Shown here one piece after another: positions 12,084 through 23,358 of a DNA stretch of 50,140 nt; within the stretch, counting starts at the first letter, position 1; every line of letters begins with the position of its first letter. This DNA is from Rhizobium sp. Q54 (lineage in GTDB: Bacteria; Pseudomonadota; Alphaproteobacteria; Rhizobiales; Beijerinckiaceae): positions 1-50,140 of the forward strand of contig CAMCUC010000018.1 in assembly GCA_945878875.1 (NCBI GenBank). Direction: 5' to 3'. The position numbers and the translations under genes are program-made. Under the pieces are notes generated by a model, which worked only from the letters and a program-made list of their open reading frames with translations, was not told the DNA's origin and ran no database searches.

Positions 12084-13445
12084 CTAGACCGGCACGCGCA
12101 CGCTTGCACGTAATCCGCCCATGGGGCTGACGTCGAGAGACACGTCGCCGCCGTGGGCGCGGGCGATGTCGCGGGCGATGGCGAGGCCCAGCCCGGTGCC
12201 GCCTTCGTCCTGATTGCGCGCTTCGTCCAGACGGTGGAACGGGCGGAACGCATCTTCGCGGTGTTCGGCGGGAATGCCGGGGCCGTCGTCGTCAACGTGG
12301 ATAGTGAGGAAGCTTGCGTCGCAGATCGCCTCAATCGCGATGTCGTCGCCATAGCGTTGCGCATTCGCCACCAGATTGGTGAGGCAGCGCTTGAAAGAAT
12401 CTGGCCGCACGATCGCGACCGCATGCCCTGAATGGGAGATGCGCGTGGCGTGGCCATGACGCTCGGCATCGGCTTTCAGCTCTTCGATGAAAGCCAGAAT
12501 ATCGGTGGAGACCGCAGGCTCGCCGCCCGCCCCGCGCGAGAAGGCGAGATACGCCTCCAGCATGCGCTGCATTTCCTCAACGTCCTTTTGCATCGCCTCG
12601 TTGTCGGAATTTTCCGGCAACATCGCCAGCGACAGGCGAAAGCGCGTGAGGATCGTGCGCAAATCATGACTGACGCCGCTGAGCATTGTCGTGCGTTGCT
12701 CAAACGCGCGCTCGATGCGCTGTTTCATCTTGACGAAGGAATAGCCTGCCTGCCGCACTTCGCGCGCGCCGTGCGGGCGGAACTCAAAATCGCGCCCCTT
12801 GCCGAAATCCTCCGCTGCGTGCGCCAGCCGCAAGATCGGCCTGATCTGGTTGCGCAAAAACGCAATCGCCACGCCCAGAAGCACCAGCGACGTGACCACC
12901 ATCCAGACGAGGAAAATATGCGAATTGGAGGCATAGGCGGCGTTGCGATTGGTGAAAATGCGCAGCACTCCAGCCTCCGTTTGCACACGCACTTCCACGA
13001 GCTTCGAGCGACCGATGGTGTCAACCCAGAACGGGCGACGCAATTGGCCAGACAATTCGCGCGTCAACGCGCGGTCGAGCAATGCAAAAAACGGCTTGGG
13101 GAGAGCGGGCGGCAAAGGCTCGGGGCCCAGCAGTTTAACGCTGAAGCCCCAGCGGTTTTCTGCAATCTTCTCGACGGCAACCATCGAGGCGCCAGATTCA
13201 ATAAGGTCTATCGTGGCGCCGATGTCTGACACCACGGCCGACGAAAGACGCTGCGTGACAAGCTGCCAGTGCCGCTCCATGAAAAAATACGCGATGGCAG
13301 ACTGCAGCAGCACCATCGGCACAATAACGATGAGCAGCGAGCGTGCGTAAAGTCCCTTGGGCATGCGCTCGCCCAGCGCAATCATGGCGCGGCGCCAGAT
13401 TGCGCGAACCTTGTCGAGCGATGGCGGGAGCCGAACCTCCTTCAT
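12084..13445 (-). CDS. EnvZ-type sensor histidine kinase
   Basis: A 453-residue inner-membrane kinase with the EnvZ layout: TM1 at about 36-55, a periplasmic domain of some 120 residues, TM2 at about 178-197, HAMP linker (about 200-250), H-box with His260 (GVSHDLRTILTRFR), N-box (LTNLVANAQRYG), DDGPGIP and GTGLGLAIA. The start overlaps the stop of the upstream OmpR-type regulator by four bases (ATGA), so both are translated from one message and should act as a pair. The signal is unknown; the neighbouring MarR gene and divergent ilvE form a grouping often seen in rhizobial genomes. Confidence 0.9.
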   Translation of the reverse strand: MKEVRLPPSLDKVRAIWRRAMIALGERMPKGLYARSLLIVIVPMVLLQSAIAYFFMERHWQLVTQRLSSAVVSDIGATIDLIESGASMVAVEKIAENRWGFSVKLLGPEPLPPALPKPFFALLDRALTRELSGQLRRPFWVDTIGRSKLVEVRVQTEAGVLRIFTNRNAAYASNSHIFLVWMVVTSLVLLGVAIAFLRNQIRPILRLAHAAEDFGKGRDFEFRPHGAREVRQAGYSFVKMKQRIERAFEQRTTMLSGVSHDLRTILTRFRLSLAMLPENSDNEAMQKDVEEMQRMLEAYLAFSRGAGGEPAVSTDILAFIEELKADAERHGHATRISHSGHAVAIVRPDSFKRCLTNLVANAQRYGDDIAIEAICDASFLTIHVDDDGPGIPAEHREDAFRPFHRLDEARNQDEGGTGLGLAIARDIARAHGGDVSLDVSPMGGLRASVRVPV

Positions 13446-14176
13446 CGGTCAACCACGAGGCGATAGCCGGCGCCGCGCGCGGTTTGCAGATAGCGCGGCT
13501 GCGCGGAATCGTTTTCGATCTTGCGCCGCAGCCGGTTCATCTGCACGTCGATGGTGCGCTCATTGGCGGCCAGCGCTGGGTCGGATGTTCCCGCACTCGC
13601 CAGCACCTCGCGCGAGACCGGCTCCCCCGGGGTTTTCGCCAGCAATTGCATGACCTGCCGCTCACGCTCGGACAAATGCACAGGCTCGCCGTCGCGCAAT
13701 AATTCTCCGCGCTCGCAATCGAACGTGAACGGGCCAAAGCGCACGCTCTCGGGCGCAGCGGCGGGCGCAATCTTCGGCGCAGTGCGGCGCAAGATCGAAG
13801 CTATCCGCAGCGACAATTCCTTGGGCTCGAACGGCTTGGTCAGGTAATCGTCCACGCCCGCCTCAAGCCCCGACACACGGTCGGCAAGTTCGGCGCGCGC
13901 GGTCAGCATCAGGATCGGCGTCTCCGATACCGAGCGCAGCCAGCGGGCGAAATCGAGCCCGCTCTCGCCGGGCATCATCACGTCCACGACCAGCAAGTCG
14001 AAGATAAACAAGCGCAACATGGAGCGCGCCGCAAGCGCGCTGGCCGCCGTGGTGACGCGATAACCCTGCTGGGCCAGATAGCGCGACAGCAAATCGCGGA
14101 TGCGGCGGTCGTCGTCCACCACCAGCACATGGGAGGCGTCGTCAGCAGGAGGGGGCAGTCGGGGCAAAGAAATCAT
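13442..14176 (-). CDS. OmpR-family response regulator
   Basis: A 244-residue regulator with a receiver domain (about 15-130; acidic DDD at 21-23, phospho-acceptor Asp65 in VVDVMMPG, Lys in LTKPFE) and an OmpR/PhoB winged-helix domain (about 150-240, with LSERERQVM and RTIDVQMNRLRRKI). It is the middle gene of a three-gene minus-strand operon: six bases lie between the MarR stop and its ATG, and four bases overlap the kinase. The kinase is its likely phosphodonor. Confidence 0.93.
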   Translation of the reverse strand: MISLPRLPPPADDASHVLVVDDDRRIRDLLSRYLAQQGYRVTTAASALAARSMLRLFIFDLLVVDVMMPGESGLDFARWLRSVSETPILMLTARAELADRVSGLEAGVDDYLTKPFEPKELSLRIASILRRTAPKIAPAAAPESVRFGPFTFDCERGELLRDGEPVHLSERERQVMQLLAKTPGEPVSREVLASAGTSDPALAANERTIDVQMNRLRRKIENDSAQPRYLQTARGAGYRLVVDR

Positions 14177-14182
14177 GATGAC

Positions 14183-14767
14183 TTAACGCTCCCCTGTGTC
14201 TTGCGCGCGCCCGTCCGGCCACACGAGCGTCTCCACCCGGGCGCGCTCCTGCGGATCTATCATGGCCAGCAGAAACCGCACGGAACCAGCGCGCGCCCCA
14301 TCCGGCAATTCCTGCAACACGCGGGCGAACCGGCGCGATTGCAGCTTTGACAATTGCAGCGCAAGATCTTCACCCAAAGCCGTGAGCTTGAGTTGGCGCT
14401 GGCGTCGATCCTGCACGCCGGGATGGGCTTCCACATAGCCCTTGTCGAGCAGCTCTTTCAGCACCCGATTGAGGCTTTGTTTGGTGATGCGCAGAATTTC
14501 CAGCAATTCGGCGATGGTAAGGCCGGGATGGCGCAAGACGAAGTGAAGCACTCGATGATGCGCGCGACCAAAGCGCAGGCTCTCCAGCAGCCGGTCGGCG
14601 TCGGCCACGAAATCGCGATAGGCGAAGAAGAACAGCTCGATCAGCTCGTAAGCGGGCGGATCTAGTGCGGCAAGCTCTTGAACGGCAAGCTCGTGTTCCG
14701 GCGCCTCTTTATCGCTCTGGCGCGCCATAATCCCCCCGCGCAGCTTCTGGAAAAGCGCCGTGTCCAT
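14183..14767 (-). CDS. MarR-family transcriptional regulator
   Basis: A 194-residue winged-helix regulator. The DNA-binding core is at about 70-150: recognition region ITKQSLNRVLKELLDKGYVE followed by the wing DRRQRQLKLTALG. Proteins of this family bind short palindromes as dimers and often respond to small aromatic ligands. It is the first gene of the operon with the OmpR-type regulator and EnvZ-type kinase, and it is divergent from ilvE across a 161-base gap that holds a palindrome overlapping the predicted ilvE promoter. Autorepression and control of ilvE are therefore plausible but are inferred from position only. Confidence 0.9.
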   Translation of the reverse strand: MDTALFQKLRGGIMARQSDKEAPEHELAVQELAALDPPAYELIELFFFAYRDFVADADRLLESLRFGRAHHRVLHFVLRHPGLTIAELLEILRITKQSLNRVLKELLDKGYVEAHPGVQDRRQRQLKLTALGEDLALQLSKLQSRRFARVLQELPDGARAGSVRFLLAMIDPQERARVETLVWPDGRAQDTGER

Positions 14768-14799
14768 AATGGGCCTGCCGAAAGGCAGCGTACAATTAA

Positions 14800-14837
14800 G
14801 TCAGCTAGATTGACATATTTCAGGTTGGTTGTTAGTC
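14800..14837 (+). promoter_or_regulatory. candidate ilvE promoter with overlapping palindromic operator
   Basis: TTGACA (14810-14815), a 16-base spacer and TTAGTC (14832-14837) resemble a housekeeping promoter reading towards ilvE. The -35 box overlaps the palindrome GTCA-7-TGAC (14800-14814), whose size and position suit a MarR dimer site in the divergent region. Confidence 0.4.
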
Positions 14838-14928
14838 GTCAAGGTCTCTAGCGGTGCGGAAAACCCGCCAGAAATCAGCCTTGTTGCAGCGCGCGGGCGC
14901 CCGGGTCGCCTGAAGCGTGGAGGAATAC

Positions 14929-15807
14929 ATGTCCGTTCTGCCCTTCGATCAGCGTGACGGTTTCATCTGGCTCAACGGCCAATTGCTCCCATGGGGCGAC
15001 GCCAAGCTGCACGTCCTCAGCCACGGCCTGCATTACGGCTCCTGCGTCTTCGAGGGCGAGCGCGCCTATGAGGGGCGTATTTTCAAGAGCCGCGAGCACA
15101 CCGAGCGCTTCAAGAATTCAGCGCAGATCCTCGATTTTGAACTCCCATATTCGGTTGACGAGCTTGAGGCCGCAAAAGCGCTCGTGCTGGAAAAGAACGG
15201 CTGGACATCGTGCTACGTGCGCCCCGTGGCGTGGCGCGGCAGCGAGATGATGGCTGTGGCTGCGCAAGATTCCACGATCAACGTCGCGATTGCGATGTGG
15301 GATTGGCCGAGCATGTTTGACGTCAACCAGAAGATGCGCGGCATCCGTCTCGACATCGCCGATTATCGTCGCCCCGATCCGCGCTGCGCGCCGGTGGCTG
15401 CAAAGGCTGCGGGCCTTTACATGATTTGCACGCTCTCCAAGCACCGCGCCGAGCGCAAAGGCTATGCGGATGCGATGATGCTGGATTGGGAAGGCCGCGT
15501 GGCCGAGTGCACCGGCGCCAACATCCTGTTCGTCAAGGACGGCGCCATCCACACCCCGCTGGCCGATTGCTTCCTCGACGGCATCACCCGCCGCACCGTC
15601 ATCGCGCTGGCCAAGGCGCGCGGGATCGCCGTGCATGAGCGGCGCATCATGCCCGAAGAGCTGGCGGGCTTTGACGAATGCTTCATCTGCGGCACAGGTG
15701 CGGAAGTGACGCCGGTGTCTGAAGTCGGCCCCTACACGTTCACGCCCGGCGCGCTGTCGCAAGCGCTGATGGAAGATTATTCGGCGCTTGTTCGCAAGCC
15801 TTCCTGA
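14929..15807 (+). CDS. ilvE: branched-chain amino acid aminotransferase
   Basis: A PLP-dependent class IV aminotransferase that interconverts Val, Leu and Ile with their 2-oxo acids using glutamate. The 292 residues show the fold-type IV pattern: HGLHYGSCVFEG near the N-terminus, the PLP-binding Lys159 (AAKAAGLY), AECTGANIL, and the phosphate-binding GTGAEVTPV near the C-terminus. The ATG at 14929 is preceded by a perfect GGAGG five bases upstream, so a GTG at 14917, which lies on that site, is not the start. The 3' end overlaps the convergent minus-strand gene by 31 bases. D-amino acid transaminase or aminodeoxychorismate lyase activity is less likely given the sequence. Confidence 0.92.
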   Translation: MSVLPFDQRDGFIWLNGQLLPWGDAKLHVLSHGLHYGSCVFEGERAYEGRIFKSREHTERFKNSAQILDFELPYSVDELEAAKALVLEKNGWTSCYVRPVAWRGSEMMAVAAQDSTINVAIAMWDWPSMFDVNQKMRGIRLDIADYRRPDPRCAPVAAKAAGLYMICTLSKHRAERKGYADAMMLDWEGRVAECTGANILFVKDGAIHTPLADCFLDGITRRTVIALAKARGIAVHERRIMPEELAGFDECFICGTGAEVTPVSEVGPYTFTPGALSQALMEDYSALVRKPS

Positions 15808-16331
15808 ACGTTGTTCGCCTGAACGTCTAACGGCGCGGCTTCATGAAAGCTGCGCCAATCCTGCGGGCCAGGCAGATCGCAGCCTGCCGCAGCGCTGCCC
15901 TCCGCCGCAACGGCCACCGCCAATATCGAGGGCGGGCCTGGCTGGCGCAGCGCCAGAGCCAACCCATAATCCAGCATGAAGCGTACGCTGGGCGGACTCT
16001 CGTAAGCCGCGCCCAGGTGCATGAAGCGCCAGTTCACGCCCGTCATGCGCTTGAACAGCCCGCCTGCGTCGCCGCCTGCGCCAATCACTGAGACGAGCAA
16101 AGCCTGCTGGCAGCTCTGACGACGAAACAATCGCGCTGCATAATCAAAATTCGCCGTGATCGCGACGCGCTCGCCAATGGTCCAGCCGCGCGCAACCATA
16201 AAGCGCTCGACCTGCGCCTCCTCGCGCTCGACCTGCACGCCGCCTTGCTGCGTGAGAGATCGCATGACGCGCGCGCCAACGCCCGCCGCCAGCAGCACGA
16301 GCAGGATTGATAAAGAGACGCGCGCCTTCAT
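15777..16331 (-). CDS. exosortase-linked membrane-anchored protein of unknown function
   Basis: A 184-residue product I do not recognise by family. Residues 6-23 form a hydrophobic N-terminal segment after Lys/Arg, so it is probably anchored in the inner membrane with the rest in the periplasm. Cys residues occur in RRQSCQQA and AAGCDLPG. The ATG overlaps the stop of the exosortase-like gene by four bases (ATGA), which strongly suggests coupled translation and a shared job. Exosortase loci often carry an EpsI-type partner, and this protein has that position and topology, but I see no diagnostic EpsI motif. The reading frame stays open further upstream inside the exosortase gene; that part is not coding. 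Confidence 0.75.
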   Translation of the reverse strand: MKARVSLSILLVLLAAGVGARVMRSLTQQGGVQVEREEAQVERFMVARGWTIGERVAITANFDYAARLFRRQSCQQALLVSVIGAGGDAGGLFKRMTGVNWRFMHLGAAYESPPSVRFMLDYGLALALRQPGPPSILAVAVAAEGSAAAGCDLPGPQDWRSFHEAAPLDVQANNVQEGLRTSAE

Positions 16332-17155
16332 ACAGATTTCTCCACCAGCTTCGGCTCCGCATTTCTGCTGCGCGAGACGAGAAAGACGAGCATCGTCTGC
16401 GCGGCGTCGTAGAGGCTGGCGCCGTGGCCGTCGTGCATGAAAGCGTAAAGCGGCGCGGACCAGCCCATCAGCACGAGACGCAACAGATTGAGCGCGGCGT
16501 AACCCGCAGCCGCCAGCGCGCCGATGACAGCCAGCTGACGCAGCGTCGCGCGCGCGCCCAGCGCCGTCACGCTGAGCGCAATCGCGGCGAGCAGCGCCAG
16601 CGGCATGCGGTGCAGGCTCGCGCACGTAATCAGCACTACGATGTTGTTGCCGCCGCTCACCTGCACCACATTGCCCATGACCTGCGTGGGAAAGCCCAGC
16701 AGCGCCAGCGTGTGCGCGGCCAGCTGCGCATCTAGCGGCAATAAATAGCCGCCGAGAATCTTGAAGCCGATGCTCATCCATATTTCGCTGAGAGCCAGCA
16801 CGGAGAACAGCGCAAAGCCGATGCGCGCCTGACCCTGCGTGAACATGAAGCGCCATGACGCAAAGGCGCAGAGCGCAATCCACGCCAGCCCGCCGCTTGG
16901 CGCCAGCAATGCGAGGCCTGAAATGATATGCGGCGCGCCGACATCGCGCGGCTCGTCGCTTCGAAGGATCGCGCGCGTGGCGAAAAACATCACCAGCAAT
17001 TCAAGCGGCGAAAGCCCCAGCAGCAAAGTGGGCGTTGGCGCGCGCACGTCTGCGATGATGCGCCCGAGCAAGCCGCCAAGGCATGCGGCCAGACACACAA
17101 GCACGCTGGCGCCTGGGAATGGGATCGTTCGAATTGTAGCTATTGCGACTGGCAT
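16328..17155 (-). CDS. exosortase/archaeosortase-like membrane transpeptidase
   Basis: A 275-residue polytopic protein with about seven or eight membrane segments. Exosortases cut secreted proteins at a C-terminal tripartite signal and are thought to pass them to another acceptor. The catalytic pattern is present late in the protein: Cys178 (LITCASLHR), Arg226 in NLLRLV, and His241 in HDGHGASLYD, matching the family order Cys ... NxxR ... HDGxG-Y. The ATG at 17155 follows AGGA and starts a natural hydrophobic protein; a longer in-frame extension to 17443 crosses the promoter region and is rejected. It is divergent from two genes whose products end in matching sorting-type tails. The exact subfamily cannot be assigned by eye. 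Confidence 0.85.
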   Translation of the reverse strand: MPVAIATIRTIPFPGASVLVCLAACLGGLLGRIIADVRAPTPTLLLGLSPLELLVMFFATRAILRSDEPRDVGAPHIISGLALLAPSGGLAWIALCAFASWRFMFTQGQARIGFALFSVLALSEIWMSIGFKILGGYLLPLDAQLAAHTLALLGFPTQVMGNVVQVSGGNNIVVLITCASLHRMPLALLAAIALSVTALGARATLRQLAVIGALAAAGYAALNLLRLVLMGWSAPLYAFMHDGHGASLYDAAQTMLVFLVSRSRNAEPKLVEKSV

Positions 17156-17461
17156 TCGTTCATCCTGACCAGAGGTCTCTGGCTTTATGGAGCAAATGAA
17201 GGGCCAACAGGCGCCGCGTTTGCTCCACGGGTTCGCAAGGAGAATGCAATGCGCGGATTTGATCAAATGAAGCAAGAAAGCGTTAAGCCGCAGGGATTTT
17301 CGGATCCGTCTGCGGGGCGTGCGGCGCTCTTGCAGGCGCCCTGCGCGAATGCAGTGGCTCTTTGCAAAACCGCAAATCGCGAGATGCAGAGCCAAATGCA
17401 AATTGCAAAGCGTTTCGCAAATCAAAGAAAAGCAACAAAGCAAATAAACAGGAGCACTCTT
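17156..17461. promoter_or_regulatory. divergent control region between exosortase and its putative substrates
   Basis: This 306-base region must hold promoters for both directions. It contains AAGGAG (17237-17242) six bases before an ATG at 17249 that is in frame with the first substrate gene and meets no stop before it, so a 71-residue N-terminal extension is formally possible. The second half is rich in GCAAA/GCAAAT repeats. No convincing -35/-10 pair stands out. Confidence 0.4.
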
Positions 17462-18211
17462 ATGACCGTGAGGAACAAGATCGCCGCACTCGCCTTCGTC
17501 GTATTATCAGCAACCGCCGCCAGCGGCGCGGCACAGGCGCAATTGGCTCTTCAGAATGGCGCTTTCGTTTCAACGTCCGGCAGCCAGACGACGGGCTCTG
17601 GCATCACGTCGCTCAATCTGGGCGACGCCGGCTCCTATACAAATATTACAGTAGTGAACATGATGCCGATGAGTCTGACCTACGGGTCTGTGACGACGAA
17701 CATCTCGTTCACCGGACAATCAGTGCTGGTAGACGGCGGAGGTTTGGCGCCGAGCGCTAACAATTATCTTTTGGCGCAGTTGAATGGCAGCGTCACACTC
17801 GACTTCTCCCAGACGCAACGCTATTTCGCCACGCGCTGGATGACGCAAGATTCAGGAAATACGTTCAGCTTTTATAACAACAATCAACTTGTCGCATCAA
17901 CCACCGGCGCCGCCGTTAAACCTATGAGCATTGCATCGACAGGAACGATCTCAAGCTTCGTAGACTTCAACTTCACCGAACTTGGTTATGATCGCGTTGT
18001 GGTGACGGGCGCAATTGCGGGCGCGGTCGAATTTGGCGAGATCACTTTCAGCGGCGACGTGCAAGCCGCCCCCATCCCGCTCAACGCCGCAAGCCTAGGC
18101 GGGCTGATGTCGTTCCTGATGATGCTCGCCATGCGCGGCAAGGGCGGAACGCAGGTCGCGATCCGCGTGGCGTTAGCTTCGATCACGCCACGTCGGCGCA
18201 CGCTGGCGTAA
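17462..18211 (+). CDS. secreted protein with PEP-CTERM-like sorting tail (putative exosortase substrate 1)
   Basis: A 249-residue exported protein. N-terminal signal peptide with cleavage near GAAQA-Q (about residue 26); a Ser/Thr/Asn-rich beta-type middle with no Cys; then at residue 203 the tail APIPLNAASLGGLMSFLMM followed by MRGKGG and a final PRRR. Motif, hydrophobic stretch and basic end are the three parts of an exosortase signal, though PIPLNA differs from the usual PEP or VPLPA box. GGAG seven bases before the ATG at 17462, plus the signal peptide directly after it, decide the start; the in-frame ATG at 17249 is the alternative. The middle resembles PEP-CTERM surface proteins only in composition; function unknown. 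Confidence 0.82.
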   Translation: MTVRNKIAALAFVVLSATAASGAAQAQLALQNGAFVSTSGSQTTGSGITSLNLGDAGSYTNITVVNMMPMSLTYGSVTTNISFTGQSVLVDGGGLAPSANNYLLAQLNGSVTLDFSQTQRYFATRWMTQDSGNTFSFYNNNQLVASTTGAAVKPMSIASTGTISSFVDFNFTELGYDRVVVTGAIAGAVEFGEITFSGDVQAAPIPLNAASLGGLMSFLMMLAMRGKGGTQVAIRVALASITPRRRTLA

Positions 18212-18255
18212 GAGAAGAAGATCAAAATTGTTATTTATAAATTGGAGATTTCAAA

Positions 18256-18996
18256 ATGAACCATATCAAAACGATAGCCGCCGCAGCCGTTCTGTCCGGC
18301 TTTGTCTCGTTCAGCGGCGCCGCTCAGGCGCAATCAACCTCCTGGTATGTCTCGCCCGACCAAACGCCCACCTATGAGGGGCTGACGTCGCTGAATTCGG
18401 TGATCGGTTCGGCGCCGGCATGGACCAACCTGCCGATCTCTTTCACCCTCGGGAGCACATCCGGGCAGATTTCGTTCACGGGGTCGGCGGGAACGTCGGC
18501 GAATGGCTTTATCAGAAATACAGACGGATCAAACTACGCGGGAACCTATCTTGAGGCCGCAAACGGTTCAGCCGTCATTGACTTCAACACCCAGCAGAAA
18601 TTCTTCAGCATGCGTTGGGGCAGCGTCGATCCCACGAACACGCTTACGTTTTATAACGGGAACCAGCTTCTCCAGAGCATAACCGGCGCGTAGGCGATGG
18701 CTGCCCGGACTGCGTGGTCTGAGAGCGAGTCATACGACGCCGGCTTCTCCTTCGGCGAAATAGGCTTCACGCGGGTGGTAGCCTCAGCAACTGGCGCCCA
18801 TGCGTTTGAATTCGTCGACATCGCCGTCAGCGACGTCGCAGCCCCCGACGTCGCCCCCATCCCGCTCAACGCGGCAAGCCTCGGCGGGTTGATGTCGTTC
18901 CTGATGATGATCTTCATGCGCAGCAAGGGCGGAATGCAGGTCATGGTGCGGATGGCGTTCGCCTCGATCATGCCAAGGCGGCGCGGGATGGCGTGA
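18256..18996 (+). pseudogene. paralogue of the sorted protein, split by an in-frame TAG (putative exosortase substrate 2)
   Basis: GGAG eight bases before the ATG starts a 145-residue frame with a signal peptide (cleavage near GAAQA-Q). It stops at TAG 18691-18693, and the same frame then continues to 18996. Across the stop the translation follows substrate 1: FSMRWGSVDPTNTLTFYNGNQL before it and FSFGEIGFTRVV after it match FATRWMTQDSGNTFSFYNNNQL and FNFTELGYDRVV. Counting the stop, total length is about the same as the paralogue (246 against 249). The piece after the stop carries the sorting tail, which matches the paralogue at 36 of 47 positions. Possibilities are a recent nonsense mutation, a base-calling error or amber read-through; if translated only to the TAG, the product would be secreted but not sorted. 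Confidence 0.78.
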
Positions 18997-19015
18997 GGCT
19001 CAAGAGCCTCACGCC
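18990..19015. terminator. bidirectional hairpin containing both stop codons
   Basis: A perfect 12-base stem (GGCGTGAGGCTC at 18990-19001, complement at 19004-19015) with a 2-base gap. The TGA of the plus-strand gene (18994-18996) and the TGA of the minus-strand gene (19009-19011) occupy symmetric positions in the two arms. There is no clear T run, so termination strength is uncertain. Confidence 0.6.
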
Positions 19016-19698
19016 TTGAAGAGGGTCAGCGCCTCGTCCGACGTCAACACGTCGCCGAATTGCTGCACGAATGTCTCCAATGTTGCGCGGTGCTCTTCAA
19101 ACGAGAGCGCCGCGCAGCAATCTGACAGCATGATGGTTTTGAAATCGAGCATCATCGCGTCGCGCGCGGTAGATTCGCAGCACACGTTGGTCTTCGTGCC
19201 AGCAATCAGCAGAGTGTCGATCCCCATCGAGCGCATCGCGCGCTCAAGGCCGGACGAGCCTGATATCAGTGCGCTGTAGCGGTTCTTGAAAATCGTCAGG
19301 TCGCGGGCATCCTGCTCCAGTCCTGACCAAACATTCTGGGCGCCGGGCGCAAGGCTTTCAATCGTGCGTGCGCGCACCTCGTCCGCCACCACATGATTGA
19401 AGAACAGCTCCCAATCGCTGCGAAGATTTGCGCCCTCGCCTGCATGGTCATTGGCGTGCAGCACCCAGACCACCTGCCCGCCAAGCGCGCGAAACGCACT
19501 TGCAAATGCATTGATCGGCGCAATGATCTCGCGCGAGCCGGGAACTTCCGCAGGGGAGCCGGGCGCGCAGAAAGTGTCCTGCATGTCGATGACGATCAGC
19601 GCGCTTGTCTTGGGCTTCAGCTTAGCGAACCAGTGCAGGCGCCCGCGCCGCGCCATCACGCGCTCGATGATGTGGGGGCGAAGCACGGGCTCGCTCAC
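19009..19698 (-). CDS. isochorismatase-family cysteine hydrolase
   Basis: A 229-residue hydrolase of the isochorismatase/nicotinamidase fold. The likely triad is Asp38 (VIDMQDTF), Lys138 (IFKNRYSAL) and Cys173 (TNVCCESTARDA), in family order and spacing. The GTG start at 19698 overlaps the moaE stop by four bases (GTGA), which argues for coupling; an internal ATG (MARRG) would remove 14 residues. Family members cleave isochorismate, N-carbamoyl amines, ureidoacrylate or similar amides; the exact substrate cannot be read from sequence. It is the last gene of the pgsA-moaD-moaE run. Confidence 0.88.
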   Translation of the reverse strand: MSEPVLRPHIIERVMARRGRLHWFAKLKPKTSALIVIDMQDTFCAPGSPAEVPGSREIIAPINAFASAFRALGGQVVWVLHANDHAGEGANLRSDWELFFNHVVADEVRARTIESLAPGAQNVWSGLEQDARDLTIFKNRYSALISGSSGLERAMRSMGIDTLLIAGTKTNVCCESTARDAMMLDFKTIMLSDCCAALSFEEHRATLETFVQQFGDVLTSDEALTLFKA

Positions 19699-20162
19699 GC
19701 CTGTTCCCAACGCTCCGCCGCGCTGTCGTCGGCGTCTTTCGCCTCCACCCATTCGCCAACGCTACCGTCGCGGCGGTGTTCTTTCTTCCAGAACGGGGCG
19801 CGGGTTTTCAGATAATCCATGATGTATTCAGCCGCTTCAAACGCCGCGCGGCGGTGCGGCGAGGTTGCAATCACCAGCACGATGTTCTCGCCCGGCAGCA
19901 CTTTGCCATAGCGGTGGATGGCGGTCGCCCCCAGCAGCGGCCAGCGCGCTGCTGCCTGCTGCGCCACGCGGAGAATCTCGTCTTCCGCCATGCCGGGATA
20001 ATGTTCCAGCTCCAGCGCCTCCAGCGTTCCCGCCTCGTCGCGACACAGGCCCGTGAAGGTGACAAGCGCGCCAACGTCGCCGCGTCCCCGCGTCAGGCTT
20101 TCAATCTCGCGCGCGACGTCGAAATCCTCATTCTGGATCGCGACCTTGATTTGCGCGTCCAT
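19695..20162 (-). CDS. moaE: molybdopterin synthase catalytic subunit
   Basis: With MoaD, converts cyclic pyranopterin monophosphate to molybdopterin by inserting two sulfurs. The 155 residues carry the family pattern: GALVTFTGLCRD near the N-terminus, LELEHYPGMAE, HRYGKVLPGE, SPHRRAAFEA and the KTRAPFWKKE segment with the catalytic lysines. Its ATG lies one base after the moaD stop, so the two subunits are made together. The cofactor made here would serve enzymes such as MsrP encoded at 44.5 kb. Confidence 0.95.
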   Translation of the reverse strand: MDAQIKVAIQNEDFDVAREIESLTRGRGDVGALVTFTGLCRDEAGTLEALELEHYPGMAEDEILRVAQQAAARWPLLGATAIHRYGKVLPGENIVLVIATSPHRRAAFEAAEYIMDYLKTRAPFWKKEHRRDGSVGEWVEAKDADDSAAERWEQA

Positions 20163-20163
20163 G

Positions 20164-20424
20164 TTAACCGCCAGTCATGGGCGGGAAGAAGGCGATCTCG
20201 CGCGCGCCTGCGATGGGCGCGTCGTGCTTGACGTGCTGGCGGTCGATGGCGGCGCGGATCACTTTGGCGTTCTCGAAGGCGTAGGCATATTCCTCGCCGC
20301 GCCTGCTCAGCCATTCGATCAGCTCGCCGATATTCTTCACGTCGTCCGGCGGGGTCAGCGTCTCGCCGGGGCGCCCGATGCGCTCGCGCACCCAGGCGAA
20401 ATAGGACAGTTTGAGAGCGCTCAT
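20164..20424 (-). CDS. moaD: molybdopterin synthase sulfur carrier subunit
   Basis: An 86-residue ubiquitin-like protein that carries the thiocarboxylate used by MoaE. It ends in the required Gly-Gly (FFPPMTGG), and the N-terminal strand LKLSYFAWVRERIG is typical of the family. It lies between pgsA (10 bases upstream) and moaE (one base downstream), an order common in Hyphomicrobiales. Confidence 0.94.
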   Translation of the reverse strand: MSALKLSYFAWVRERIGRPGETLTPPDDVKNIGELIEWLSRRGEEYAYAFENAKVIRAAIDRQHVKHDAPIAGAREIAFFPPMTGG

Positions 20425-20434
20425 GTCGGCTCCT

Positions 20435-21031
20435 TCAATCTTCGTCCGTGATGTGCTTCAATCCTGCGCGCATATAATCCCATCCGCTGTAAAGCGTCAG
20501 GAGGGCAGCCGCCCAGAGCAGCGTCAGGCCGATGGTCTGCGTATAGGGCAGCACCTTTTCGCCAGCCGGGCCAGCGATGAGAAAGCCCAGCGACACCAAT
20601 TGCAGCGTGGTCTTGTACTTGGCGACCTGCGTCACCGGCACCGAGACGCGCAGGACCGCCAGATATTCGCGCAGGCCCGAGACCAGAATTTCGCGCGTCA
20701 GGATAATGAACGCCGCCCACAGCGAACTGCCCGCAATCTCGCCGTCGGCCGCCAGCATCAACAGGCACACCGCCACCAGCAGCTTGTCGGCGATGGGATC
20801 GAGCATCTGGCCAAGGGAAGATTGCTGCGACCAGACGCGGGCGAGATAGCCGTCGAAGAAATCCGTAATGGCGGCAACCGAGAACACGGCCAGCGCGCTC
20901 CAGCGCGCCCAATCCTCCTCCGGCCACAGCAGCAACGCGGCCACGACGGGAACCGCCGCCACGCGACCATAGGTCAGCAGGTTGGGCAGCGAGAAATTGT
21001 GCGATTTGCGTCGTGTCGGAGCAGAGGTCAT
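20435..21031 (-). CDS. pgsA: CDP-diacylglycerol--glycerol-3-phosphate 3-phosphatidyltransferase
   Basis: Makes phosphatidylglycerol phosphate, the first committed step to phosphatidylglycerol and cardiolipin, in the inner membrane. The 198-residue protein has four or more membrane segments and the CDP-alcohol phosphatidyltransferase signature DG-xx-AR-x8-G-xxx-D-xxx-D (from DFFDGYLAR to LDPIADK). The ATG at 21031 (MTSAPTRRK) was chosen because the 30 residues upstream in the same frame are unlike the family. It heads the pgsA-moaD-moaE-hydrolase operon. Confidence 0.93.
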   Translation of the reverse strand: MTSAPTRRKSHNFSLPNLLTYGRVAAVPVVAALLLWPEEDWARWSALAVFSVAAITDFFDGYLARVWSQQSSLGQMLDPIADKLLVAVCLLMLAADGEIAGSSLWAAFIILTREILVSGLREYLAVLRVSVPVTQVAKYKTTLQLVSLGFLIAGPAGEKVLPYTQTIGLTLLWAAALLTLYSGWDYMRAGLKHITDED

Positions 21032-21189
21032 AGCCACGATGGAACAGACTGGCGCCAGCGCGTCAACCCCCTCGAAGGAGGCTGGCGCTGTCCCTTCTTG
21101 AGCTTTACGCGCAAAACGCAAATAGCGTCAGGCCGCTGGCGCGCCGGCGGCAAATGCGGAATGAGCGCACGCGAAGGCGCCCCGCATGT

Positions 21190-22260
21190 TCATTCTTCGC
21201 CTTTGGCTTCCGTGCGCCGCATCCACGCGACGATGAACGGCAGGCTCATGTTGATGAGGAAATAGCGGCCCAAATGGTGCGTGGCCACGAAGATCGGGTC
21301 AACGTTCAGCACCAGAGCCAGCGCCACCATGGCCTCCTGCCCGCCCGGCGCGTAGCCTATGAGCGCAGCCCCAAACGGCACGCCAAGCCATTGCGAGGCC
21401 GCCCACGCAAACGCCACCGAAACCAGAAGCGCAGCGCCGACCGCCAGCACCGTGCCGACAATTATACGAAAGAACAGGCTCCAGTTAAAATCAACAAAGC
21501 GCGAGCCGACCCATGAGCCCAGCAGAATCTGTCCGCCATTCATCAGCCAGTCTGGTGAACGCCCCGTGGCAATTTCGCCGATATGCAGGCCGGCAGAGGC
21601 CACAATGGCGCCAAGGATCATGCCGCCGGGCACGCCCAGTTTGGTGAACAGAGCGCCGACGCCAATGCCCGCAGCCATGACGGCGGCCACCATCAGCGGC
21701 GAATCAAACGCCGGCGCTGCAAGACTGGGCGCGCCCCCGCCCTGCTCCCAGACAATCACAAACGGCAGCAGCGTGACGAGGAACACCACGCGCGACATCT
21801 GCACCACGGCGACTTTGGCGGCGTCCGCGCCCATCGTCATCGACACGGAAACGATATAGCCCATGGAGCCGGGCACCGAGGCCAGCAGCGCCATTGACGG
21901 CGACCAGCCCATCAAATAGCGCCAGACGCCAGCCGAGGCGAGCGTCATCGCCACCACGCAGAGCGCCATCAGCGCCATGCTGGCGGGATAGGCCGCGACA
22001 TGGTTGAGCGTATCCGGCCCCACCACCGAGCCAATGGCCACCCCGATCGAGGCCATGCCGAGCACCCGCAGCGGCCCACCGATGGGAGTCGCAAGCCCTA
22101 ACGCCGACAATGTGGCGACAGCGACCACGGAGCCCGACATCGCGCCGCCGGGAATGTTGAGAAGAAGAAACAGGCCCGCGCCCGCAGCGCCAACGCCCAG
22201 GGTCAGCGCCTCGCCGATCAGATTTTTCAGGTTGAAGGTTTTGGAATCGCTGCTGGTCAT
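21190..22260 (-). CDS. AbrB-family (PF05145-type) integral membrane protein
   Basis: A 356-residue membrane protein with about nine or ten hydrophobic segments in two similar halves, each rich in Gly/Ala and with a PGG-containing loop (NIPGGAMSG and GVPGGMILG). This is the family often labelled AbrB duplication or putative ammonia monooxygenase; neither label has a solid biochemical basis, and it is not related to the DNA-binding AbrB of Bacillus. A transporter role is possible. It sits alone between pgsA and two small exported proteins, with a large palindrome upstream of its start. Confidence 0.8.
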   Translation of the reverse strand: MTSSDSKTFNLKNLIGEALTLGVGAAGAGLFLLLNIPGGAMSGSVVAVATLSALGLATPIGGPLRVLGMASIGVAIGSVVGPDTLNHVAAYPASMALMALCVVAMTLASAGVWRYLMGWSPSMALLASVPGSMGYIVSVSMTMGADAAKVAVVQMSRVVFLVTLLPFVIVWEQGGGAPSLAAPAFDSPLMVAAVMAAGIGVGALFTKLGVPGGMILGAIVASAGLHIGEIATGRSPDWLMNGGQILLGSWVGSRFVDFNWSLFFRIIVGTVLAVGAALLVSVAFAWAASQWLGVPFGAALIGYAPGGQEAMVALALVLNVDPIFVATHHLGRYFLINMSLPFIVAWMRRTEAKGEE

Positions 22261-22305
22261 GCGTTCGGCTTACGCCAATTTGGCCGCGCGTAAAATAGGG
22301 ACGCT

Positions 22306-22385
22306 ATCTGGACCCCGCGCATTCTTGGGACCGCGCGCGGCCTCGCGCGCATCCTTGGGCGCACGAAGAAGCGCGCGGTCCAGAT
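22306..22385. repeat. palindromic element with TCTGGACC ends
   Basis: The left end ATCTGGACCCCGCGC (22306-22320) is an inverted copy, with one difference, of GCGCGCGGTCCAGAT (22371-22385). The middle holds two near-direct repeats, GCGCATTCTTGGG and GCGCATCCTTGGG. A related right end, GCGCGCAGTCCAGAA, is at 28732-28746, with TCTGGA at 28657, so this is a second dispersed palindrome type. Confidence 0.6.
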
Positions 22386-22391
22386 GGCGCC

Positions 22392-22688
22392 TTAGGGTTT
22401 TGGCGCCATGCTGCGCGCTTTCTCCATAAAGGCGCTGGCGGCGTCCACGCAGGACTTCATGTTGTCCAGCGGATCGCAGCGCACGGCGATTGTCGCGTCG
22501 CCGCTGCGCAGGAAAAACAGCGCCCCGCGCGAGGCGACGCCGCCCCGCCCCATTCCATCGCCAAGATCGCGCAACAGATCCTCGACACCACCATCACGTC
22601 CTCCCCTGCGATCATCGGATGGCGCCTGCGCCATGACAGGGCCAGCCATTAGCATGAGACAGGCGGAAAGAAGCAGAATACGATTCAT
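22392..22688 (-). CDS. small exported protein, unknown function
   Basis: A 98-residue product with a clear signal peptide (MNRILLLSACLMLMAGPVMAQA, cleavage near residue 21). The mature part begins with an Asp/Arg/Gly-rich stretch and then a compact segment, FFLRSGDATIAVRCDP, followed by two Cys in total (RCDP and KSCVDAA), which could form a disulfide in the periplasm. The LRS-GD-T-VR pattern also occurs near the end of the neighbouring exported protein, so the two may be distant relatives. I do not recognise a named family. Confidence 0.72.
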   Translation of the reverse strand: MNRILLLSACLMLMAGPVMAQAPSDDRRGGRDGGVEDLLRDLGDGMGRGGVASRGALFFLRSGDATIAVRCDPLDNMKSCVDAASAFMEKARSMAPKP

Positions 22689-22731
22689 CCTCTAAACTCC
22701 ATTACGAGAAAGCCCTACGGGAGAGAAGTTT

Positions 22732-23223
22732 CTAGTCGCGGCAGATGCGTCGGCGCACCAGCGCCGTCACGTCGCCATCCTCGGAACGCAGGATCCGCGT
22801 CATGTAAAAACAGCGACCGCCATCGTCGCCATAACGCGAGGCAAGGCGATCACGCACGCGATCGCGGATGCGTTCACGCAAGCCCTCGCCGCCCTCGCCA
22901 TGTTCGCCAAAACGCTCAGCCAGCCTGTCGCGAATGCGCTCGCGCTGCTCCGGGCTGATCCGTTCCATCATGTCCTGCCGTCGCTCGCGTCGCTCTTCCA
23001 TCATGTCCATCATATGCGAGCGCCGATCCTGCCGGTCGCGCATGCCCTCCATCATTGCACCGCGCATCTCGCGACGAGATTCGATCCCCTCACGCAAAAA
23101 TTCACGCAGTTCTTCGCGACTCACGCCGCCGCCGTCCTCTTGCGCGGAAGCTGCTTGCGGCATGAGCGGAAGCGCCATTGCGAGCGCAAGCGCGCCCATT
23201 GGCAAAAGCGAAAGCGTTTTCAT
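22732..23223 (-). CDS. exported Arg/Glu/Met-rich protein, unknown function
   Basis: A 163-residue protein with a signal peptide (cleavage near ASAQE, about residue 27). The centre is an uninterrupted highly charged helix-forming stretch with repeated REMR / MMEE / RRERRQ motifs and ISPEQRERIRDRL, which recalls the LTxxQ helices of Spy/CpxP-type periplasmic proteins. The end has two Cys (GRCFYMTRILRSEDGD and RRICRD). AAGGAG shortly before the ATG at 23223 fixes the start; the longer frame to 23277 is unsupported. A metal- or envelope-stress role is a guess based on the Met/His content and Spy-like helices. Confidence 0.75.
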   Translation of the reverse strand: MKTLSLLPMGALALAMALPLMPQAASAQEDGGGVSREELREFLREGIESRREMRGAMMEGMRDRQDRRSHMMDMMEERRERRQDMMERISPEQRERIRDRLAERFGEHGEGGEGLRERIRDRVRDRLASRYGDDGGRCFYMTRILRSEDGDVTALVRRRICRD

Positions 23224-23358
23224 GAAAAGCTCCTTGGCTGAACCTGATCCGTGCGGCCTCAACGCATCAAAGCGCAAAGTCGCGAACTGGTTATTGATCG
23301 GGCAAGGAGCCGCTTCATCTATGCGAAAGACGTAAGGGCGACACGCTTTTGCGCGCGT

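Follow-up and report, generated by a model that had tools for sequence, protein, structure and literature searches.

A predicted compact, dedicated exosortase module, of a clade missed by public models, in an uncultured alphaproteobacterium

The stretch of DNA analysed here (the window; 50,140 nucleotides of contig CAMCUC010000018.1) comes from the genome of an uncultured alphaproteobacterium (G000; assembly of 2.84 Mb, 92.8% complete), and between a class IV aminotransferase gene and an isochorismatase-fold gene it carries a locus of 3201 nt (15808-19008) that we read as an exosortase module. Three intact genes encode a polytopic membrane protein (P0001), a small accessory protein (P0002) and a divergently transcribed secreted protein with a C-terminal sorting tail (substrate 1, P0003), and a further frame holds a second substrate (Table 1). 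An earlier note on this DNA had proposed a system of four genes in which the enzyme is divergent from two secreted paralogues; two plus-strand frames are indeed present, but the second is cut by a TAG codon and is not one open gene, so that the fourth member is an interrupted substrate. Judged from sequence comparison, the locus is a real, compact and dedicated module of an exosortase clade that public models miss, and among sequenced relatives its tail signal occurs only where an enzyme of the same close clade occurs.

Table 1. Features of the exosortase module, its flanks and the corresponding empty sites
Feature	Position	Strand	Basis or remark
Class IV aminotransferase gene	14917-15807	+	left flank
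Accessory protein P0002, 184 aa; N-terminal hydrophobic helix and two-Cys alpha/beta domain	15777..16331	-	alignment, model
Exosortase-family membrane protein P0001, 275 aa; C178, R226, H241, G245	16328..17155	-	homology, invariant residues, model
Divergent promoter region, enzyme / substrates	17156..17461	+	GCAAA/TTTGC cluster 17361-17461, conserved leader 17249-17461
Substrate 1 (P0003), 249 aa; signal-peptide-like start, Npun_F0296 domain, sorting tail	17462..18211	+	NF050191 match
Substrate 1 sorting tail: A-P-I-P-L box, ~18 uncharged residues, 25-residue basic end	18068..18208	+	tail comparison
Substrate 2 frame; TAG in frame at 18691-18693; Npun_F0296 domain spans stop	18256..18996	+	reading frames, domain search
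Second sorting-tail copy, 3' of TAG	18853..18993	+	tail searches
Isochorismatase-fold gene	19752-19009	-	right flank
Empty sites, flanking genes directly adjacent	L082:2470-2510, L083:2565-2605

P0001 had been described in the earlier note as a polytopic protein with Cys178, NLLR226 and H241DGHG in exosortase order, and this is what its gene encodes. An enzyme profile matched 20 places in 18 of 397 genomes of the order, and 24 loci were examined in all, comprising the window, 11 homologues from 101 relatives and 12 of the 17 new order-level places; across these divergent enzymes C178, R226, H241 and G245 are the only invariant residues (24/24). An absolutely conserved cysteine, arginine and histidine have been described for the exosortase family (PMC1569441; this and the other papers are cited from extracts). 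When the six sequences of the close enzyme clade (alignment A6) were compared by hhalign with six exosortases that pass TIGR04178 (A7), the two aligned over 229 columns (99.4%, E 7.4e-22) with C, N-x-x-R and H-x-x-x-G in register. A search against Xrt subfamily models, the check suggested at the outset, gave a divided answer: P0001 passes no curated cut-off, and its homology to exosortases that do pass appears at the level of profiles. A Pfam search with P0001 gave no match, no enzyme model of NCBIfam 20.0 or Pfam reached its cut-off on it, and TIGR04178 and PF09721, searched in the window's own genome at E 0.001, gave 0 matches. Scanned singly, two of nine homologues pass TIGR04178 (L013, 29.9 bits; L014, 26.7 bits), as do four of ten order-level homologues (L072, L073, L075 and L081); these six make up A7. 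It is because of the invariant C/R/H and the profile homology, despite the missed models, that P0001 is called an exosortase; by residues and profile it is placed inside the exosortase/archaeosortase superfamily, below every curated cut-off. Its AlphaFold2 model has a mean pLDDT of 84.5.

The body of substrate 1 matches NF050191, the Npun_F0296 family of exosortase-dependent surface proteins, at 38.1 bits (cut-off 29), and relatives score 50.7 and 38.4 bits. This domain was found in 6 of the 12 genomes tested, and these are precisely the genomes that carry the close enzyme clade. Each of the 12 copies listed falls inside the module, counting the one on G049:C63, a contig that shares an exact 149-nt overlap with G049:C106. 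In an extract of a cyanoexosortase B study, Npun_F0296 of Nostoc is named as one of the PEP-CTERM proteins; less of its expression group was found outside the cell in the mutant, and after correction the difference was significant for Npun_F4801 alone (PMC12188702). Both frames of the window end, as the earlier note had reported, in APIPLNAASLGGLMSFLMM, followed by a basic stretch and PRRR (TLA / GMA). In substrate 2 the TAG splits the frame into a 145-aa product with a signal peptide but without the tail, and a 99-aa open reading frame (ORF) with the tail but without a signal peptide (signal peptides being assigned by eye and a simple hydropathy rule only); therefore only one tagged substrate is intact in this genome. 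The TAG may be a true nonsense change, a strain variant or an assembly error; an intact relative is present in G049. Recoding of the TAG was considered and rejected, as nothing supports it.

The tail of substrate 1 reads APIPL, then has some 18 uncharged residues between this box and its first arginine, and ends in 25 residues of which six are basic. The hydrophobic part had been called short, which does not hold, because 14 uncharged residues are described for PEP-CTERM (PMC1569441); the basic end is, as claimed, long and unusual. As for the box, PIPLNA had been put forward as the recognition sequence, but the tails of G001 have only P-I-P-L in common with it, and boxes in homologous modules read A/V-P-x-P or G-P-L-P; on these two grounds the core is read as P-x-P-[L/I/V], and the box of the module, better given as A-P-x-P-L, is related to VPLPA. 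Sorting-signal models, TIGR02595 included, found no match in P0003 up to E 10. Among 11 tagged proteins of six genomes (55 pairs; the window's substrate 2 and the fragment at the contig start of G049:C63 were left out), mean identity is 65.4% in the tail versus 39.0% in the body, with the tail higher in 46 of 55 pairs; without G001 the values are 77.2% and 39.9% (36 pairs).

Homologues of P0001 occur in 12 of the 101 relatives, six at 52-100% identity (G000, G001, G022, G044, G047 and G049) and six at 24-35%. A profile of the tail gave 13 matches (12 distinct) in 6 of 51 genus genomes. These are precisely the genomes that have a close enzyme, and each match lies beside the enzyme. Because the profile contains rows from the positives themselves (all but one are represented; G049:C63 supplies two rows and G049:C106 none), the informative part is the absence of the tail from the other 45 genus genomes: a tail in a genome lacking the enzyme, the finding that the earlier note had named as damaging, turned up in 0 of 45. 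With a single tail sequence as query, no match at E 0.01 was found in the other 396 order genomes sampled, a query that misses tails as diverged as those of G001, which were found by the profile containing their own rows. Weak single-tail matches in G040, G042, G048, G050 and G049:C36 (E 0.005-0.065) were dropped, none of them reaching E 0.01 with the profile. Nor was G020 counted as a seventh member: its tail is different, its enzyme is 33% identical to P0001, and its E of 1.2e-94 was obtained with a profile containing G020. A scan of the window's own genome for further tagged proteins, which had also been suggested, placed both G000 tails inside the module, and so the enzyme adjoins its few targets with none elsewhere in the 92.8% complete genome.

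Two contigs of G049 overlap by exactly 149 nt at the sorting-tail repeat (L017:11718-11866, L084:1-149), where the assembly broke. Such repeats likely cause contig breaks and double counting; the matches at the end of G049:C106 and at the start of G049:C63 represent a single tail seen twice, and the 13 matches are therefore 12 distinct ones.

The surroundings of the module are conserved as well. Both flanks are kept in G000, G001, G022, G044 (cut by the contig end) and G047, and in G049 only the left flank was seen. In G041 and G007, which have neither enzyme nor tail, the stop codons of the two flanking genes lie 4 nt and 3 nt apart, tail to tail, versus 3201 nt in the window. From this empty site, examined in these two of the 45 genus genomes that lack the close clade, we infer that the module was gained or lost as a unit.

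The coupling of the enzyme gene to a small anchored protein, claimed as an ATGA junction, is borne out by a 4-nt overlap (16331-16328) with the gene of P0002, which has one N-terminal hydrophobic segment. The AlphaFold2 model of P0002 (mean pLDDT 86.7) shows one helix at the N terminus followed by an alpha/beta domain, and in an alignment of 20 accessory proteins (A3, from which those of L022, L076 and L080 were left out because their starts are uncertain) only the start methionine and two cysteines, C74 and C151 of P0002, are invariant (20/20). No family of NCBIfam or Pfam scored above its cut-off in these 20 proteins. EpsI models exist in NCBIfam or Pfam, and EpsI-type or exosortase-associated models of these collections were matched by 0 of the 20 up to E 1. 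By sequence, P0002 thus belongs to a two-cysteine family that has no name in either database. Its homologues occur in 7 of the 101 relatives, namely the six close-clade genomes and G099. An ORF of at least 100 aa overlaps the enzyme stop by 4 nt at 17 of 24 enzyme loci, versus 25 of 338 other long frames there. A downstream ORF of at least 100 aa starting from -30 to +120 nt follows 23 of 24 enzymes (L025 has none), which by itself is weak evidence for a partner because 225 of 338 control frames have one too; the argument for a partner therefore rests on the 4-nt overlap and the two cysteines. The cysteines suggest a periplasmic disulfide in P0002, and the coupling suggests that it is a stable partner of the enzyme. 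The accessory gene that follows the G020 exosortase (L022:6710-7224) has no single ORF from the usual ATGA start, and body-like sequence lies in another frame.

Taken with the NF050191 match, profile homology, the invariant residues and the co-occurrence of tail and enzyme, the proposal of a dedicated exosortase/signal pair is supported, and we put the probability at roughly 0.88 that the locus is a dedicated exosortase module in which the tailed substrate is cut via Cys178, passed to an acceptor and released from the inner membrane. By analogy with the family, which is our guide to the cleavage, to the acceptor, to where the protein ends up and to what the partner does, the substrate would be exported and then held back by its tail, the box lying outside; with the help of Arg226 and His241, Cys178 would attack near the box to form a thioester; and the new C terminus would be transferred to the acceptor, freeing the protein from the inner membrane to reach the cell surface or the medium. 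P0002, coupled to the enzyme and with its two cysteines, is probably a periplasm-facing partner that holds enzyme, substrate or acceptor. Cutting and anchoring of the module's own surface proteins would thus be its apparent function. To our knowledge, the acceptor and partners of exosortases are still unsettled, and here a cassette of three genes, with a conserved small partner and one substrate or a few of its own, offers a much simpler test than a genome that encodes tagged proteins by the tens. Lipid anchoring is announced for archaeosortase substrates in the title of PMC7157517.

Several observations weigh against this reading. The best curated NCBIfam model on P0001, XrtN TIGR04476, scores 26.4 bits under a cut-off of 200, and TIGR04178 scores 8 bits under a cut-off of 23; a solved relative of P0001 was sought by sequence and by fold, and none was found. 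The odds of 5.6e-8 for choosing the same six of 51 genomes at random do not describe six independent events, because the six genomes share one ancestral locus. The module is evidently dispensable, since an enzyme of the wider family occurs in only 12 of 51 genus genomes, and beside 6 of the 24 enzymes (L025, L072, L073, L075, L080 and L081) no tail-like neighbour was seen by eye. Finally, the interruption of substrate 2 means that the system may be decaying in its own genome.

This last point leads to the alternative that survives best, although we regard it as unlikely, namely that the module is in decay in its own genome, with the enzyme intact and the set of substrates being lost. The in-frame TAG in substrate 2 is what such decay would leave, three tagged paralogues are present in each of G022 and G049, and two relatives are without the module; yet enzyme, accessory gene and substrate 1 are all open, the enzyme and accessory homologues in G022 and G049 are 79-87% identical to those of the window, and a TAG in a draft assembly may equally be a sequence error or strain variant. 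A second alternative, which we consider improbable, is that the locus is a diverged local version of the XrtD/VPLPA-CTERM system and not a distinct pair. P-x-P is common to the module box and to VPLPA (a motif name taken from the title of the XrtD model), and two enzymes of the wider family match the XrtD model weakly (L010, 16.0 bits; L081, 20.2 bits), but these scores lie far under the cut-off of 400, P0001 itself does not match the model (TIGR04152) up to E 10, P0003 is likewise unmatched by sorting-signal models, and the basic end is 25 residues long. In a third alternative the tail would do no more than anchor a bitopic protein in the membrane, and its neighbour would be an inactive exosortase relic with some other role, as might be thought from an enzyme under all curated cut-offs and an interrupted substrate 2. 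This is very improbable, given that C, R and H, with G245, are the sole invariant residues in 24 divergent enzymes, that the 6 of 51 genomes with the tail are also those with the close enzyme clade, and that the tail is conserved beyond the body.

The dedicated module can be set beside several known systems. With the exosortase/archaeosortase superfamily (TIGR04178, PF09721) it shares the polytopic enzyme, the Cys-Arg-His order and substrates of motif, helix and basic end, and it differs in that P0001 is below the cut-offs of both models. The pair was suggested to be undescribed, which is correct insofar as it is unnamed in NCBIfam 20.0 and Pfam, because P0001 scores below the cut-off of every enzyme model there and P0003 matches no signal model up to E 10, but it falls inside this superfamily. 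PEP-CTERM/EpsH (XrtA) is alike in its tripartite tail, signal peptide, invariant Cys/Arg/His and conserved upstream DNA, and stands apart by P-E-P and a five-residue basic end, versus P-I-P-L and 25 residues here, and by a median of eight tagged substrates per genome, versus one to three (PMC1569441). Exopolysaccharide genes lie near 90% of EpsH homologues (PMC1569441), whereas none is found among the ten flanking proteins scanned here (12087-23277), in keeping with the earlier note; nine of the ten have matches to other kinds of Pfam family, and the tenth has no match. VPLPA-CTERM/XrtD shares the P-x-P box, and its model has 486 positions versus the 275 residues of P0001; from XrtN the enzyme is set apart by its failing score. 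The Npun_F0296 family has a similar substrate body, the tail of the module being distinct in its PIPL and long basic end. Among the dedicated sorting systems described in extracts of PMC3237569, the arrangement of an enzyme adjoining few targets recalls rhombosortase genomes with a single target, and the module differs by its enzyme family and by the additional coupled two-cysteine partner. Among the matches listed in a search of the exosortase literature, which mostly did not cover subscription journals, no title or start of an abstract names the module.

The wider enzyme family in the order points beyond the window. A tail of P-x-P, helix and basic end, judged by eye, adjoins 18 of the 24 enzymes, with boxes such as APLPG, APAPL, APVPL, GPLPL, PGPIA and PGPVA. 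A strict detector that also requires a signal-peptide-like start finds a match within 2 kb in 12 of 24 loci, with 17 matches in 91.9 kb near enzymes versus 2 in 226.5 kb far from them, both of the latter being module members. Many of these substrates are tiny, with start codons that are not certain. In G322 (L077:6707-7628), four tandem frames lie beside the exosortase, three of them ATG-started and of about 54-62 residues each, and each is hardly more than a signal peptide and a P-x-P sorting tail; small tailed ORFs also lie beside exosortases in L021, L023, L024, L026, L070, L071, L074, L078 and L079. We tentatively suggest that the order harbours an unnamed class of self-contained exosortase cassettes, each with a small exosortase, a coupled two-cysteine partner that would have a part in the catalysis or in the transfer to the acceptor, and a P-x-P substrate of its own, often a micro-protein of about 50-100 residues that consists of scarcely more than signal peptide and tail; in the clade of the window, a second basic segment, on the cytoplasmic side, might have been added to the tail and account for the specificity of the pair. 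A whole exosortase clade can escape curated models, and because these models miss this one, surface-protein sorting in the order is probably under-annotated.

The divergent region between enzyme and substrates (306 nt) contains nine GCAAA/TTTGC sites, or 2.94 per 100 nt versus 0.27 in the rest of the window, and the cluster within it, with up to seven sites in 101 nt, is the densest stretch of the window. The rate is raised in five of six loci (G047 has one site only); the block is conserved in G022 and G049, and the raised rate extends to G001 and G044. The cluster is likely the binding site of a regulator, a prediction that recalls the upstream DNA sequence shared by PEP-CTERM genes (PMC1569441). 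Conservation between the window and G022 in the leader 5' of substrate 1 exceeds that of the protein body. An N-terminal extension of substrate 1 from an ATG at 17249, which follows the ribosome-site-like AAGGAG, was considered, as this frame is open in the window, G022, G049, G044 and G001, and was rejected. Substitutions at codon positions 1, 2 and 3 number 4, 8 and 8 (window and G022), 4, 12 and 12 (window and G049) and 8, 13 and 8 (G022 and G049), with 12-19 nonsynonymous and 1-5 synonymous codons across the three pairs. Because this pattern lacks the codon-position bias of a protein, the leader looks like conserved untranslated DNA.

At the other end of the module, a perfect 12-nt inverted repeat (GGCGTGAGGCTC) at 18990-19015 covers the stop codon of substrate 2 together with that of the convergent isochorismatase-fold gene, and is possibly a terminator shared by the two.

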